Positions 27,486 through 59,108 of a stretch of 64,000 nt of DNA are shown here, piece by piece (within the stretch, counting starts at the first letter, position 1; the number at the start of each line of letters is the position of its first letter). Position numbers and translations under genes: made by a program. Source of the DNA: Coffea arabica (Eukaryota > Streptophyta > Magnoliopsida > Gentianales > Rubiaceae); contig NC_092329.1 of NCBI RefSeq assembly GCF_036785885.1, forward strand, positions 6,696,001-6,760,000, written 5' to 3'. The notes under the pieces are model-generated. The model saw nothing but the letters and a program-made list of their open reading frames with translations, did no database searches and had not been told where the DNA came from.

Positions 27486-27589
27486 CTATAATCCTGGAGG
27501 GGATTGCTCAAAACTGTTAGATTGAGAAAAAACAAAAGCTTCGGGTTTTGGCGGAGCATCAGGTGATTCTTGAGCACTTGGCCCTGAAG

Positions 27590-28212
27590 GAACAAGCCTC
27601 TTAACCTTAAATGCAGGAGGAGAATCCGGTCATTCTTTTGGATTTGGTCCCGAAGGAACAAGTCTCTTAACCTTAAATGCAGGAGGAGAATCTGGTGTTT
27701 CTTGCACATTTGGCCCTGAAGGTACTAGTCTCTTAACCTCGAATCGACTGGGAGGTTCAGGTGATTCTTGACCCTGAAGGAACAAGCCTCTTAACATCAT
27801 AGCTCGGGGGAGAATTTGGTGATTCTTGCGCGCTCGGCCCTGAAGGAACAAGTCTCTTAACCTCGAATCGGCTAGGAGGTTCAAGTGATTGCTGACCACT
27901 TGGCCCTGAAGGAACAAATCTCTTAACATCATAGGGCGGGGGAGAACTAGTGATTCTTGCGCGCTCGGCACTGAAGGAACAAGTCACTTAACCTCGAATC
28001 AGCTAGGAGGTTCAGGTGATTGCTGACCACTTGGCCCTGAAGGAACAAGCCTCTTAACATCATAAGGCGGGGGAGAATCTGGTGATTCTTGCGCGGTCGG
28101 CCCTGAGGGAACAAGCCTCTTAACATCAAAGCTAGGGGGAGAATCTGGTGGCTCCTGGGGATTTGGCCTCGAAGGAACAAGTCTCTTGACCTTGAAAACA
28201 TTTGCTTTTGGG
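27590..28212 (-). repeat. Ten tandem 66 bp units encoding a 22-residue CLE-like repeat
   Basis: Successive units begin, on the minus strand, at 28190, 28124, 28058, 27992, 27927, 27861, 27795, 27737, 27671 and 27605. The steps are 66 bp except for one of 65 and one of 58. A typical unit is VKRLVPSGPSAQESPDSPP plus three residues. Units 2 to 7 alternate between a form ending ESPDSPPxYD and one ending QSPEPPSRFE, so the array grew in part by doubling a 132 bp pair. The lost bases (1 and 8) sum to 9, so the reading frame is restored after unit 7. TGA codons fall in units 3, 4 and 9. Confidence 0.9.
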
Positions 28213-28299
28213 AGGGAGTTGATTGCAGGGGTACCTGGTGAAGTTTCTGGATTCGGTCCCAAAACAATGCCATTATGAACATAGAACTTTTTTATCCCC

Positions 28300-29170
28300 C
28301 AAGAAACTAAAAAATGTGAAGGAAAAATATAAAAAATTTTTTTTTACAGAAGAACACATGCATTAATAAAGTTTTAAGACTTGTAAGATAAAAGAAAATG
28401 CAAAAAGAGAAACGATAAATTAAAGCAATGGAGTATACAAGTGAATCATATAGCATATTTTAAGTTCTCTTAATTAAACAAATTGTATGTGTGTGATTTA
28501 CTAGGTTCTCCTTTTCTTTTATTTGATAAATAAATTTAACACACTTTTTGTGACTTTTGGCACGATGGTGATTGGTGAATTACATTATTTTGGCGACAGA
28601 AGAATAAATGTCATTGGAAGATTTGTAATATTTACTTTTAATTAGGAAAAATGTTAGGTATGTCATTGAGGCCCCTTTAAAATAGTTGCGAAATATCAAA
28701 AAAATTAATGCATTTATTAAGAAGATTCTTTCTTATTCATAATAACGTGAACAGCCCATAGAAATTTCCTTATAAAAAAAAATAACACATGAGGCCCTTC
28801 TTAACCCCTTGGCCAAACCAATAAATGCTCTATAAAAGATATGCATAGTAGATTAAGAATCAATGATGATCGAGAAATTTTAGCAAATTAATTAAAAGAA
28901 TTATTATTGCAAATATATTAAAAGGGAAGGTAATAAAATAAAAGTTATCCACGTTACTCTCCAAGAACTAATACTGCACAATCTAACATTCTCGGCTGAA
29001 ATTGCCATTAATTATTTCTGATTTGCTAATGTAATGTAGTATAAGTTGGATTTTTTATATGTTTTCCTTAGTTAATTTTATATTTCAAAAAATCTAACAC
29101 ATGAAATATATCTTGATGAGTATCCGTTAGATAGGCCGATTTTCTTTATTTGGATTGTGCAAAATTAACA
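28300..29170. other. AT-rich gap inside the peptide-gene relic
   Basis: No coding frame is visible. On the minus strand its exit side has a strong acceptor-like TTTTTTAG just before the resumed peptide frame (about 28310), so it may be an intron. The best donor candidate, after VPSAPK near 29190, does not leave the matching phase. An insertion is the alternative. Confidence 0.4.
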
Positions 29171-29541
29171 AGTTGATATATAATACAACTTTGGCGCAGA
29201 AGGAACTTCATGATCAACCTTTGACTTATCCGACAGAGACGTGCCTCTAGGAGGAGTACCTGGCGATTCTTCAGGATTTAGGCCTGAAAGCATGCGATTT
29301 CAACAGCGACCTGATCCGACGACGACCGCCAGGTGACTTCTCTGGATTTGGCCCTCCAGGAACAAGTCCTCCAACCTCACAGGCATTGGATTTTGTTAGG
29401 GAACCATGTGTAGGTTCTGGCTGCTCAACACTATCCAGCTCTATTCGAGATGGCCATTGCACCATAATGGGGTGGAACCAAACATATCAGCAGAAGAATC
29501 ATTGCTGTAAACATATGGGATTTGACTTCGACAAGATCCAT

Positions 29542-30192: not shown

Positions 30193-30584
30193 GGGAAAAT
30201 GCCAGTTTTTACTCTTAAAACTCTGGGTCATGAACAAATTTTATCATTGCACTTTTTAGCATAACATTTTTAGTATTTGAACTATCAAATTTTGATCAAT
30301 TTTATCCTCAAATGGGAAATTAATCAATTTAAAGAAAATTTAGAGTTGCGAATAAAGGTATTTGAGTTGGGAAAGTGAACATATCTATTCAATTTTGCTG
30401 ATTTTAAGTTGTGTAAACCTTTTTAATTAATGGGCAAATTTTCATTCAAATTGATTAATTATCCGTTTAAGAATGAAATTGATCAAAAATTGATAATTCA
30501 AATACTAAATGTGTTGCTCCAGAAATTTCAAGGATGAAATGTATCCGTGATCCAAAATTTAGGGACCAAAATTTGCATTTTCCC
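30193..30584. mobile_element. Foldback MITE, 392 bp
   Basis: The two ends are long inverted repeats. The left arm opens GGGAAAATGCCA and the right arm, inverted, opens GGGAAAATGCAA. The arms stay alignable for about 150 bp each (both contain TTTAGTATTTGAA and AATTAATCAATTT), leaving a loop of roughly 80 bp. No clear target duplication was found. It ends about 200 bp before the start of the membrane-protein gene. Confidence 0.7.
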
Positions 30585-30679
30585 AAACAGAGACGTAAAA
30601 TATGAGTAATTGTTCACCCAAAAAAAAATGAAAAAGAAAAAATAGTAGCAATGTTAGTTTTACCACCTCTCAGCTTAAG

Positions 30680-36849: not shown

Positions 36850-37236
36850 TGTGGAGGCCAATTGTGGATTTGTCCACCTCGGCAGGAGAGCAGCCTGGGG
36901 AGCAGGGGAGCCTGGACTCCCTGGTGGTGCTTGGAGGGGGGCCTCCCCAGGATTCGAACCCTTGACCTTAAAGGTTCTTGGGTTGAAGTCCTGGTACCCA
37001 TTGAGCACAAAAAGGCAGGCCTTTTTGTGGAGGCCAATTGTGGATTTGTCCACCTCGGCACCGTCTTGGGGAGCAGGGGAGCCTGGACTCCCTAGTGGTG
37101 CTTGGAGGGGGGCCTCCCCAGGATTCGAACCCTTGACCTTAAAGGTTCTTGGGTTGAAGTCCTGGTACCCATTGAGCAGGCTCCCCTACTCCCCAAGACG
37201 GTGCCGAGGTGGACAAATCCACAATTGGGCTCCACA
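36850..37236. mobile_element. Foldback element with pol III-like boxes and 5 bp target duplication
   Basis: The element begins TGTGGAGGCCAATTGTGG and ends with the inverse, CCACAATTGGGCTCCACA, so its ends are TG and CA. It is flanked by GGCTG on both sides (36845-36849 and 37237-37241). Inside are two direct copies of a roughly 150-175 bp unit (36850-37024, 37025-37178) followed by an inverted copy of the first 58 bp (37179-37236). Each direct copy, read on the minus strand, contains GCTCAATGGG (A-box-like) and GGGTTCGAATCC (a perfect B box). The corresponding place in copy B (about 53478) lacks it. Open frames across it (36769-37336) are by-products of the repeat. Confidence 0.75.
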
Positions 37237-42193: not shown

Positions 42194-43845
42194 TCATGAA
42201 GATTGTGATGGTTGCAAGGTCCATCCATAGGAAATGGCCAATGGCAATTCATCACAATAGATAAAACAGGGGCCTTCATGGTTATGCCTCCCCTCATAAG
42301 TTGTAACCAAATAGCTTGGATCTTCGACATCTCTTTCCACTCTTTTCTTTACTTTGCACCCTTCAGTGGAGCACTTGTAGTAATTCCTGTGCAACCATTT
42401 ATTAATCCGCTATTAGATAATTATTTTTAGATCAAGTAATAGATACACGTAAATAAGATCTAATAATCAATTAACCTCTTGCATCTACTGATGAGTTATT
42501 TAATCACAAAAATCTTATATCTATAAAGGACTTACTTTGTCATGTGTTGTGTGTCTATTAGAGAAATGCCTGCTTAAAAAATGTATGAATTATCCATTTA
42601 CTATATGCGTGCATGCGAGCAAGGTAGTTGAAATTCTGATTGAGCCCAAAAATCTTCTTCATCGAGAAATCAATCATATCATATATGCATGTTGATCAGT
42701 GCAATTCTTGGATAGGAATCACTCTGATTTTGTGATTACGATGAAAAGCAACTCTTTTCATCATTTGTTATTGTCCACAAATATACTTGTGAAAGAAACT
42801 AGACATGTAGGTTTCCAAGAAAGTAAAGAAACTGAGGAGCTCCACATGTTTAATTGACTGGAAATCAACGAAGAGCATATGAAAGACTTCCAAGGTAACA
42901 GGATACTCAAGCAACTTAAGCAACACCTGAACTGCACCCTTCCTCCCTCAATTCCCCCCCCCCCCCCCCCCCCCCCCCCTCTCTTCCCCTACCGGAAATT
43001 GAAAAAAAAAAAAATACAACAACACAGAATGAAAAATAACATAATCAAATCGACAAGCTTAATACGTGTGATAATTATTAATTATCAGTCACCTCGATCT
43101 TGTGCATTGGAGCATGCATGCAGATTTTCATAAGCTTTGATAAATACTCTTCATTATTTACCTTGGATTAGGATTACTCTTCACCTTTTTCTTCCCATAC
43201 TTCCTCCACTTAAATCCATCATCCAAGATCTCAAGCTGAGTCTTTGTTCGAATAGCAATAACATTTCCTTGATCCACCTTAGCCCTCTTCATCACCCTCT
43301 TGCAACTTGACCTATGGAGAAAAAAAATCTTAATTAAACTGCAAAAATACATACTACCAATAGGTATTTGGGAAACGACAATATGAATCACTTTTCTTTC
43401 TTATTTTGTGGATTTGAAAGAAACTATATAAAACTTTGTGTACTAACTGATCTTCTTCCATGTAGCTATTGATTGGCATGCCATCCATACAGCTGGCTGA
43501 ACTTCCAGTAGTACTAGTCATTTCTTGAGTGAACAGAGTTGGATGAACACATGCTGTGAGGCTAGAATTGGAATCTTCATGAACATTGTTGATTAAGAGC
43601 TGTCCATGATCCGGTATGTCAAGATAATGAGAAAGTTCTTGGCTTCCTAGATGATCAGTGAAGTACTTGTCAAGTAAATAATCAGAAGTATAAGTGCTTG
43701 GAATAACAGTGTCATGATGAATACTAATGCCTGGCTCTGGTGGTGGGAGGAAAGGGGAGTTGAACATGGCGTGGTAGAAAGGCAAAGACTTGGAATGTAT
43801 TGAGTCGTTGAATTGGCTTTTGGTATGAAAAAGTGGGATCATCAT
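42194..43845 (-). CDS. WRKY transcription factor, group IIc, WRKYGKK type (copy A)
   Basis: Exons in gene order: 43448-43845, 43162-43311 and 42194-42386, giving 246 residues. The N-terminal 130 residues are poorly conserved and rich in Ser, His and Pro ([12 protein letters not shown]). A basic stretch, [14 protein letters not shown], precedes the DNA-binding domain: [17 protein letters not shown], then a zinc finger of C-x4-C-x23-H-x-H (YYKCSTEGC to GRHNH). The intron within the domain sits after NPNPR, as in other group IIc genes. WRKYGKK in place of WRKYGQK is typical of the WRKY50/51/59 branch, which acts in salicylate and jasmonate defence signalling; the tobacco member NtWRKY12 prefers a TTTTCCAC box. 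The gene looks intact. Its sister is at 57375-59108. Intron 2 holds a run of 26 C at 42954-42979. Confidence 0.93.
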
Positions 43846-57374: not shown

Positions 57375-59108
57375 TCAAGAATATTGCGATGGTCGCAAGG
57401 TCCATCCATAGGAAATGGCCAAAGGCAATTCATCACAGTAGATAAAACAGGGGCTTTCATGGTTATGCCTGCCTTCATAGGTTGTAATCAAATAGCTTGG
57501 ATCTTCGCCATCTCTTTCTACTCTCTTCTTTACTTTGCACCCTTGAGTGGAGCACTTGTAGTAATTCCTGTGTAACCATTTATTAATCCGCTATTAGATA
57601 ATTTGTAGATCAAAAGACCAAATAATTAATTTACCACATGCATCATCCAGTACTGATGAGTTATTTAATCCCAAGAATGTTAGATGTATTGGGGAATTAC
57701 TTTCTTTTGAGTGTGTGTGTGTGTGTGACTGATGGAGAAATGCATGAATGATAATCTTAAAAAGTGTATAAACCATTCTTGATGTGCATGCATGCATGCA
57801 AGGTGGTTGAAATTCTAATTCAGGCCAAAAATCTTCTTCATCAAGAAATCAATTATATCATATGTGTACGTTGATCAGTGAAACGCTTTGATAGCAATCA
57901 CTCTGATTTTGTGATTACCATAAAAAGCAAGTCTTTTCATTATTTGTTGTGCTGTCCACAAGTATACTTGGGAGACTAGACATGTAGCTTTCCAGGAAAG
58001 TAAAGCAGCTAAGGAGCTCCACATGCTTAATTGACTAGAAAACTCTGAAAACAGTACTGAGAAAATTCATCAAATTCTAAACTAACTTCAAGAGGAGAGT
58101 GAAGTTGTAAGAACCTCCTTACCCAATCCAAAGATGGATGTAGCTATGCATTCAAACACCGCCCCTCCTCCCTCATCCCCCCCAACCACTAAGTCCCTTA
58201 CCCAAAATAAAAAAAAAACAATTATACACATAAAACAACAAAAAAAAAAGGAAAACAAAACAGGAGGAGGATAGAAGGGGTCAGCCATAATACGTAATCA
58301 GGTTGATAAGCTTAACATGTGTGATTATTATTCCTGATTAGTAGCCTCGATGATCTTGTATGGTTGGAACATGCATGCAGATTTTCATGAGCTTTGGTAA
58401 ATACTATTGTTTACCTAGGATTAGGATTACTCTTCACCGTTTTCTTCCCATACTTCCTCCACTTAAATCCATCATCCAAGATCTCAAGCTGAGTCTTCGT
58501 TCGAATAGCAATAATATTTCCTTGGTCCACCTTAGCCATCTTCGTTGCCCTCATGCATCTTGATCTATACAAATATCAAAAGAACCAATTAAATCATAAT
58601 TAAACTGAAAAAAACATAAACTACCAATAGATGTCTTGGAAGCTACAACATGAATAATTTTTCCTTCTTATTTTGTGGATTTAAAAGAAATTATACATAA
58701 CTTGTTGACTCACTCATGCATGTTGCAATTGATTGGCATGCCATCCATGCAGTTGGCCGAGCTTCCAGTAGTATTCGTCATTTCTCGAGTGAATGGAGTT
58801 GGATAAACACATGCTGTGAGGGTTGAATTGGAATCAGTATGAACATTGTTGATTAAAGGCTCTTCATGATCTGGTAAGTCAAGATAATGAAGAAGTTCAT
58901 GACTCCCTAGATGATCATTGGAGTACTTTTCAAGCAAGTAATCAGAAGAAGCATAAGAGCTTGGAACAACATTGCCATGATGAGCGCTAATGCCTTGCTC
59001 TGGTGGTGGGAGGAAAGGGGAGTTGAACATGGTGTGGTAGAAAGGAAAAGTCTTGGAATGTATTGAGTAGTTTAATTGGCTTTTGGTATGAGAAAATGGG
59101 ATCATCAT
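57375..59108 (-). CDS. WRKY transcription factor, group IIc, WRKYGKK type (copy B)
   Basis: Exons in gene order: 58714-59108, 58415-58564 and 57375-57567, giving 245 residues. Intron positions and phases match copy A. The DNA-binding domain reads [17 protein letters not shown] with the zinc finger YYKCSTQGC to GRHNH. Within the domain it differs from A at only a few places, notably Thr for Lys after GKK, Gln for Glu in the first zinc knuckle, and Gly in RDGED where A has Val. Gly is the usual residue there, so B keeps the older state. The N-terminal part is more diverged but alignable throughout. No stop or frameshift is seen, so both sisters could be active. A GT repeat lies in the 3' flank side of exon 3 at 57711-57727. 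Confidence 0.93.

Follow-up and report, generated by a model that had tools for sequence, protein, structure and literature searches.

The locus studied here is probably a decaying gene of the multi-CLE (CLE-like) type, whose secreted precursor would have released active peptides. It lies on the minus strand of a 64-kb window of the coffee genome (C20:6696001-6760000 of assembly G000), and has a homeolog on contig C19. The central point of the original prediction is upheld: the locus is a coding gene in decay, and its product was a secreted-type precursor of several units that have a CLE-like core. Other parts of the prediction, among them the extent of the gene and the origin of its start, had to be revised.

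The array in the window and its lesions

Tandem Repeats Finder identified a 66-bp period (22 residues) between positions 27553 and 28193 of the window, and an additional period of 132 bp at 27553-28124. The array was predicted to hold ten or more 22-residue units in which Pro, Ser, and acidic residues abound; we counted ten, and they have this composition. The cores had been said to read RLVPSGPNP or close variants, which holds for the variants rather than for the string itself. RLVPSGP is present in 6 of the 10 units, as is R.VPSGP[NDS], and VPSGP is present in 7, but the exact RLVPSGPNP occurs in just one and the cores are not uniform. No tRNA (ARAGORN) and no Rfam match were found within the 64-kb window.

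The array gene, hereafter gene B, has three in-frame TGA codons and two frame-shifting deletions in this copy, in agreement with the predicted stops and frameshifts, and one deletion of 929 bp (Table 1). The window copy is a pseudogene. The size of the large deletion is well defined: if it is set to 929 bp, 40 of 40 bases agree past the junction, against 14-18 of 40 at 926, 927, 928, or 930 bp. The deletion took the signal-peptide start of gene B, and the missing DNA is present in C19 upstream of position 5422947. Since the missing piece includes a signal-peptide segment with homology to the one in a neighboring gene (gene A, see below), a deletion in C20 seems likelier than an insertion in C19.

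Table 1. Features of genes A and B in the window (window positions).
Feature	Positions	Strand	Basis or remark
Gene A: signal-peptide-like MDLVEVKSHMFTAMILLLICLVPPHYGAMA, followed in other frames by the CLE-like units GLVPGGPNPEKS and RMLSGLNPEES	29190-29541	-	
Gene B, breakpoint of the 929-bp deletion	28258-28260	-	GGG common to both sides; comparison with the C19 homeolog
Gene B, first unit, longer and divergent, GPNPETSPGTPAINSLPKANVFKV	28188-28262	-	Deletion fuses the unit to former upstream DNA
Gene B, array of ten 22-residue CLE-like units	27537-28187	-	Tandem Repeats Finder and unit count
Unit 3, in-frame TGA	27999-28001	-	
Unit 4, in-frame TGA	27984-27986	-	Unit also 1 bp short (65 bp)
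Unit 7, frameshift	27735-27792	-	58 bp instead of 66 (8 bp short)
Unit 9, in-frame TGA	27630-27632	-	
Gene B, C-terminal tail FVFSQSNSFEQSPPGL and stop	27486-27536	-	Stop at 27488-27486; same tail in C19

The original prediction placed a single gene over 27486-29541 and gave the array the signal-peptide-like start at 29541. We identified two tandem genes instead. The ATG at 29541 belongs to gene A, a paralogue that lies upstream of what is left of gene B, at a distance of about 930 bp. We ruled out a single gene running from 29541 to 27486 because the stretch between the two genes (28258-29050) is 92.4% identical to DNA upstream of the C19 gene, and because the two signal-peptide-like starts are those of tandem paralogues. 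The signal-peptide and upstream regions of genes A and B match at 98 of 146 bp (E 2e-8). Gene A has broken frames on both contigs, and its window copy has lost the 3' end that is still present in C19; there the gene carries the CLE-like HEVLSAPNPEQS in another frame.

Two further observations were made elsewhere in the window. A 171-bp near-tandem pair (93% matches) at 36850-37178 carries GGATTCGAACCCTTGACC, which looks like a reversed tRNA T-arm, and may be a pair of tRNA-derived SINEs; ARAGORN found no tRNA at this pair. The open reading frames 43354-43845 and 58710-59108, both on the minus strand, look like paralogues (MMIP.HTKSQ...) produced by local duplication, and the first has no Pfam match.

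The homeologous locus on C19

We searched the assembly (1.198 Gb, 131 contigs) with a composite protein of the units. All 12 matches listed fall either at the C20 locus or at C19:5421446-5422811. The two loci are syntenic, with identities of 97.95% over 2,980 bp, 96.5% over 721 bp, 94.8% over 910 bp, and 92.4% over 805 bp. An additional inverted match of 77% between window positions 30435-30585 and C19:5426886-5427036, beside the locus, suggests a local inverted repeat. A search with the 22-residue unit had been proposed as a way to look for an intact copy. The search led to a less damaged relative, with a signal-peptide-like start and five units in an open reading frame of 160 residues; the C19 array is itself damaged.

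This reading frame starts at an ATG (5423090) upstream of, and in frame with, the array, and remains open until a TAG at 5422610. It consists of the signal-peptide-like MMEPAACQGHMFRAVILLLLSLNPCHNVAMA, a longer first unit with VLKGPNPETS, and four VPSGP units. The hydropathy of the MMEPAACQGHMFRAVILLLLSLNPCHNVAMA start peaks at 2.59 over 10 residues, against 0.95 elsewhere in the protein; the peaks of two coffee CLE precursors are 3.53 and 2.62. No Pfam family matched the 160-residue product. The C19 copy may still yield a precursor of 160 residues with five units.

The complete C19 array comprises 23 units. VPSGP is kept in 11 of them, and in 9 GS replaces GP at positions 6-7 of the core. Farther along, the array contains units of 47 bp and 65 bp and, at 5421970, another TAG. 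The TAG-bearing unit is present twice, with starts 640 bp apart and a single base of difference, which suggests that duplication within the array continued once the stop had arisen. The units past the stop appear to behave like an expanding minisatellite.

Relationship of the core to CLE peptides

To compare the units with CLE peptides, we built a score matrix from eight homeolog pairs of coffee CLE genes of the same genome. In leave-one-out scoring, which is not fully independent because two of the eight CLE 12-mers occur twice, the coffee CLEs obtain 30.2-40.1 bits over the full 12-mer and 27.4-31.4 bits over positions 1-9. The 16 array strings that we scored in full (7 from the window and 9 from C19, some identical) obtain 2.7-22.4 bits. 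Thirteen of them exceed the best score (10.0) among 59,466 background 12-mers taken from the rest of the window, and the remaining three score 8.0, 8.0, and 2.7. At positions 1-9 alone, 16 of 17 array strings reach 13.8-31.9 bits, and one has 8.5. The CLE consensus at these positions, R/H-x-V-P-S/T-G-P-N/D-P, is matched in full by the units with GPNP, and weakly by those with GS or lacking P9. Older units vary in their scores: RRVLKGPNPETS has 15.5 bits, GLVPGGPNPEKS 20.3, and HEVLSAPNPEQS 17.7, while NRMFSGLNPEES has 2.4.

The end of the motif gives a different picture. Positions 10-12 score -5.8 bits in all 16 array strings and -2.4 in the older units, and the His-Asn end (x-H-N/H, or I-S-N in the TDIF type) is absent from every unit of the window and of C19 that we examined. 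The full pattern R-x-V-P-S-G-P-N-P-x-H-N, put forward originally, is hence found in no unit. By these scores, the front of the CLE core (positions 1-9) is present and its end (10-12) is missing. In the TDIF-receptor complex, as summarized in a review, the C-terminal anchoring site serves conserved binding and the N-terminal site provides specificity (PMC6749341).

Several features outside the score bear on the same question. The dipeptide KR precedes the core in 9 of the 10 window units and in 19 of the 23 C19 units; it also does so in 4 of the 8 coffee CLE pairs. The layout with one C-terminal core per precursor does not describe this locus, given five units in the C19 reading frame and 10 and 23 in the arrays; multi-CLE precursors are known to depart from it. 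A multi-CLE layout does describe it: the period is of 22 residues, and the open frame of 160 residues contains four VPSGP cores and one older unit. The mature part of the C19 product has three matches to R.VPSGP[NDS], and only 16 of 200,000 residue shuffles contain at least one.

When the mature product was aligned locally with three coffee CLEs and five motifs from rice, wheat, and Medicago, 0-7 of 1000 shuffles reached the observed score. With a single 28-residue unit, 0-8 of 1000 did so for all but one of the eight; the exception was the wheat motif, at 67 of 1000. Against one Arabidopsis peptide of each of the other types, the whole product gave 171-800 of 1000 shuffles for CEP1, PSY1, and IDA, and 7 of 1000 for PIP1, and the single unit 228-868 of 1000 for the four. 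The shuffles thus favor CLE over CEP1, PSY1, and IDA, whereas PIP1 matches CLE with the whole product and falls behind with the single unit. Comparison of the N-termini with the eight precursors of coffee CLEs gave no clear homology (the best result, 7 of 500 shuffles, is one of 16 comparisons).

These data allow us to weigh a doubtful alternative, that of a Pro/Ser-rich repeat protein secreted to the cell wall or apoplast and left uncut, in which the likeness to CLE would be convergent. The unit is indeed rich in Pro and Ser, with SPP stretches that may be hydroxylated, the canonical CLE end is absent, and 22-residue repeats with a higher-order period of 132 bp fit the turnover typical of repeat proteins. 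However, the core is more specific than the composition predicts, as the shuffles indicate, the KR dipeptide is placed as in half of the coffee CLE pairs, and the 160-residue product has no match to a wall protein in Pfam.

Relatives in the genome

We also searched the genome for other members of the family. The N-terminal 94 residues of the C19 product gave 18 listed matches, 17 of which are at the two loci. The other, at C19:3522241 (E 8.75), was rejected, as it is Pro-rich and of low complexity on both strands. Genome-wide, the pattern VP[STCW]GP[ND]P is matched exactly at 21 places, of which 16 are single-core CLE genes, 3 do not look like CLE, and 2 belong to the arrays. Since the reversed pattern, used as a control, gives 16 matches, this pattern is weak on its own. 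The 16 CLE precursors form eight homeolog pairs, whose 12-mers end in LHN, LHH, ISN, or ESN. The pattern RLVPSGP followed by one residue has 23 matches (4 in the control), of which 14 belong to the arrays and 8 to CLE genes; the last, at C19:48348438, has a stop in its frame directly ahead of the motif. Among the best-scored candidates of the protein and pattern searches we found no further family member, with patterns that capture only part of the CLE genes of this assembly.

Neighboring contigs behave as homeologous pairs, with CLE genes in common between C1/C2, C3/C4, C5/C6, C7/C8, C11/C12, C17/C18, and C21/C22. In addition, a methyltransferase exon on C1 agrees at 125 of 127 residues (a count by eye) with PDB chain 2efj_A, the 3,7-dimethylxanthine methyltransferase of Coffea canephora, and its counterpart on C2 has a lower score (256 against 264 bits); contigs paired up to C22 make allotetraploid Coffea arabica the likely source. 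Among the CLE genes are some that we take to be of the TDIF type, with HEVPSGPNPISN on C1/C2 and C17/C18 and HNVPSGPNPESN on C5/C6. One CLE pair, C5:7061669 and C6:7050966, ends in HNVPSGPNPESNK, an unusual variant near the TDIF type.

The older units raise the question of a separate peptide family, related to the CLE/PIP/CEP/PSY group and signaling through non-CLE receptors, which we regard as improbable. These units read GPNPE.SPG, and the four places where the assembly exactly matches the corresponding DNA pattern lie within genes A and B (none in the control). The lack of His-Asn in every unit and the alignment of the whole product with PIP1, as good as with CLEs, point in the same direction. 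On the other hand, positions 1-9 score well on the CLE matrix, and the single unit is no closer to CEP1, PSY1, IDA, or PIP1 than its shuffles are.

Coding history of the array

We estimated dN/dS among 23 distinct full-length units (15 types from C19 and 8 from the window), after dropping four length variants and collapsing duplicates. The sense frame gives a value of 0.41 (bootstrap 0.23-0.66), and the two remaining frames of this strand give 0.98 and 1.28. One antisense frame, whose third positions coincide with those of the sense frame, reaches 0.39, but it contains 15 stops whereas the sense frame has 4. In line with this, nucleotide diversity among units is 0.36 at third codon positions, and 0.19 and 0.18 at first and second positions; the units are related by duplication, and not independent, so that these figures and the dN/dS values serve as a guide. 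When complete arrays are considered, stops are fewest in the sense frame: the window array has 3 there and 9-16 in the other five frames, and the C19 array has 5 and 22-46, respectively. The pattern of differences indicates that the units of gene B diverged under protein-level constraint. Such purifying selection implies that the gene was once translated.

The leading block of the homeologs differs by 6 nonsynonymous and 3 synonymous changes, a ratio of 0.70 (one codon, the window stop, was set aside), and hence there is no sign of recent constraint. This change between homeologs and the doubled TAG unit, which reveals expansion after the stop, would suit a non-coding minisatellite with a fortuitously open frame, but the third-position bias between units, the low number of stops in the sense frame, the in-frame signal-peptide-like start, and a tandem paralogue of the same design make it very improbable.

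A model of the precursor

We favor a multi-CLE-type gene, whose design can still be read in the C19 copy: a signal-peptide-like N-terminus and the VLKGPNPETS unit are followed by four KR-preceded VPSGP cores, one every 22 residues, with core-to-core spacers of Gln, Glu, Ser, and Pro. The precursor would enter the secretory pathway, where the prolines of each core could be hydroxylated and perhaps arabinosylated. Subtilases would then cut near the KR ahead of each core, freeing several short peptides per precursor. These peptides would act on LRR receptor kinases of the CLE type or on their relatives. Without the His-Asn end, they might have served as ligands of low or changed activity, or as competitors.

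A bolder version of this model, which we hold to be rather unlikely, is that the C19 copy is still alive and encodes a precursor of five CLE-like peptides of non-canonical form (VPSGP cores that lack the His-Asn end), from a lineage-specific branch of multi-CLE genes producing altered or competing ligands, and that the C20 copy died by losing its signal-peptide start. Were it true, the locus would be a natural example of a young allopolyploid in which a peptide signal disappears from one subgenome and persists in the other. If the C19 reading frame is unexpressed, the two loci are an ordinary pair of pseudogenes of a rare gene type. The homeologs provide one dead and one half-readable copy within a single genome, and the coffee locus would let one ask if such arrays amplify, dilute, or antagonize CLE signaling, and how they die.

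Comparison with known systems

Multi-CLE precursors are known in several plants, and their processing and function are described as little studied (PMC4526924, PMC8496505). A total of 59 multi-motif CLE proteins were reported in 27 species (Goad et al., as cited in PMC8496505), and the same source mentions that multi-motif genes of switchgrass had no amplified activity in Arabidopsis (PMC8496505). The main text of a survey of 69 species does not contain the word Coffea (PMC7552357). Judging by titles, no paper on the Coffea CLE family and no account of this locus is among the matches listed for the open-licence literature, where the string LVPSGPS was not found either.

The canonical coffee CLEs, such as the one at C21:41534768 ending in GVEKRLVPSGPNPLHN, share with the arrays the KR before the core and the VPSGPN. 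They differ in having one core at the extreme C-terminus, an LHN or LHH end, and an N-terminus without clear similarity. TDIF-type peptides resemble the HEVLSAPNPEQS of C19 gene A, which differs in lacking the ISN end and in belonging to a broken gene.

The genes described in Medicago truncatula and Lotus japonicus (MtCLE14/22/26/27 and LjCLE32/33/46/47) encode prepropeptides of 116-347 residues, each of which contains CLE units in tandem; the unit length is reported as constant within each gene except LjCLE33 (PMC5570945). Soybean GmCLE37a/b are listed with six units and MtCLE14 with seven (PMC4526924). By their description, these genes resemble the coffee locus in the tandem CLE units within one prepropeptide, and differ in that their units number three to nine and measure 24-35 residues (PMC5570945), against 10 or 23 of 22 residues in coffee. 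An array of up to 23 units exceeds the range given in these legume papers, and its core lacks the C-terminal end.

The closest described design that we found is that of rice CLE76, with VPSGPDPITSDPPP units (PMC2254619). The tabulated entry has four motifs, e.g., EFPVLREVPSGPDPITSDPPP, spaced by 25-29 residues (Oelkers et al. 2008, PMC2254619). The rice protein has several regularly spaced cores, VP[ST]GPDP in its case, and shares this layout with coffee; its core is followed by a Pro-rich segment of Ser, Asp, and Pro (ITSDPPP), and LHN is absent as in coffee. The residues before the core are also similar, with EFPVLREVPSGP in rice and FEVKRLVPSGP in coffee. As far as the motifs in the table can be compared, the rice protein differs in having four units that keep DP at positions 8-9, whereas in the coffee arrays, which comprise 10 and 23 units with a length of 22 residues, most units lack P9 and stops interrupt the frame.
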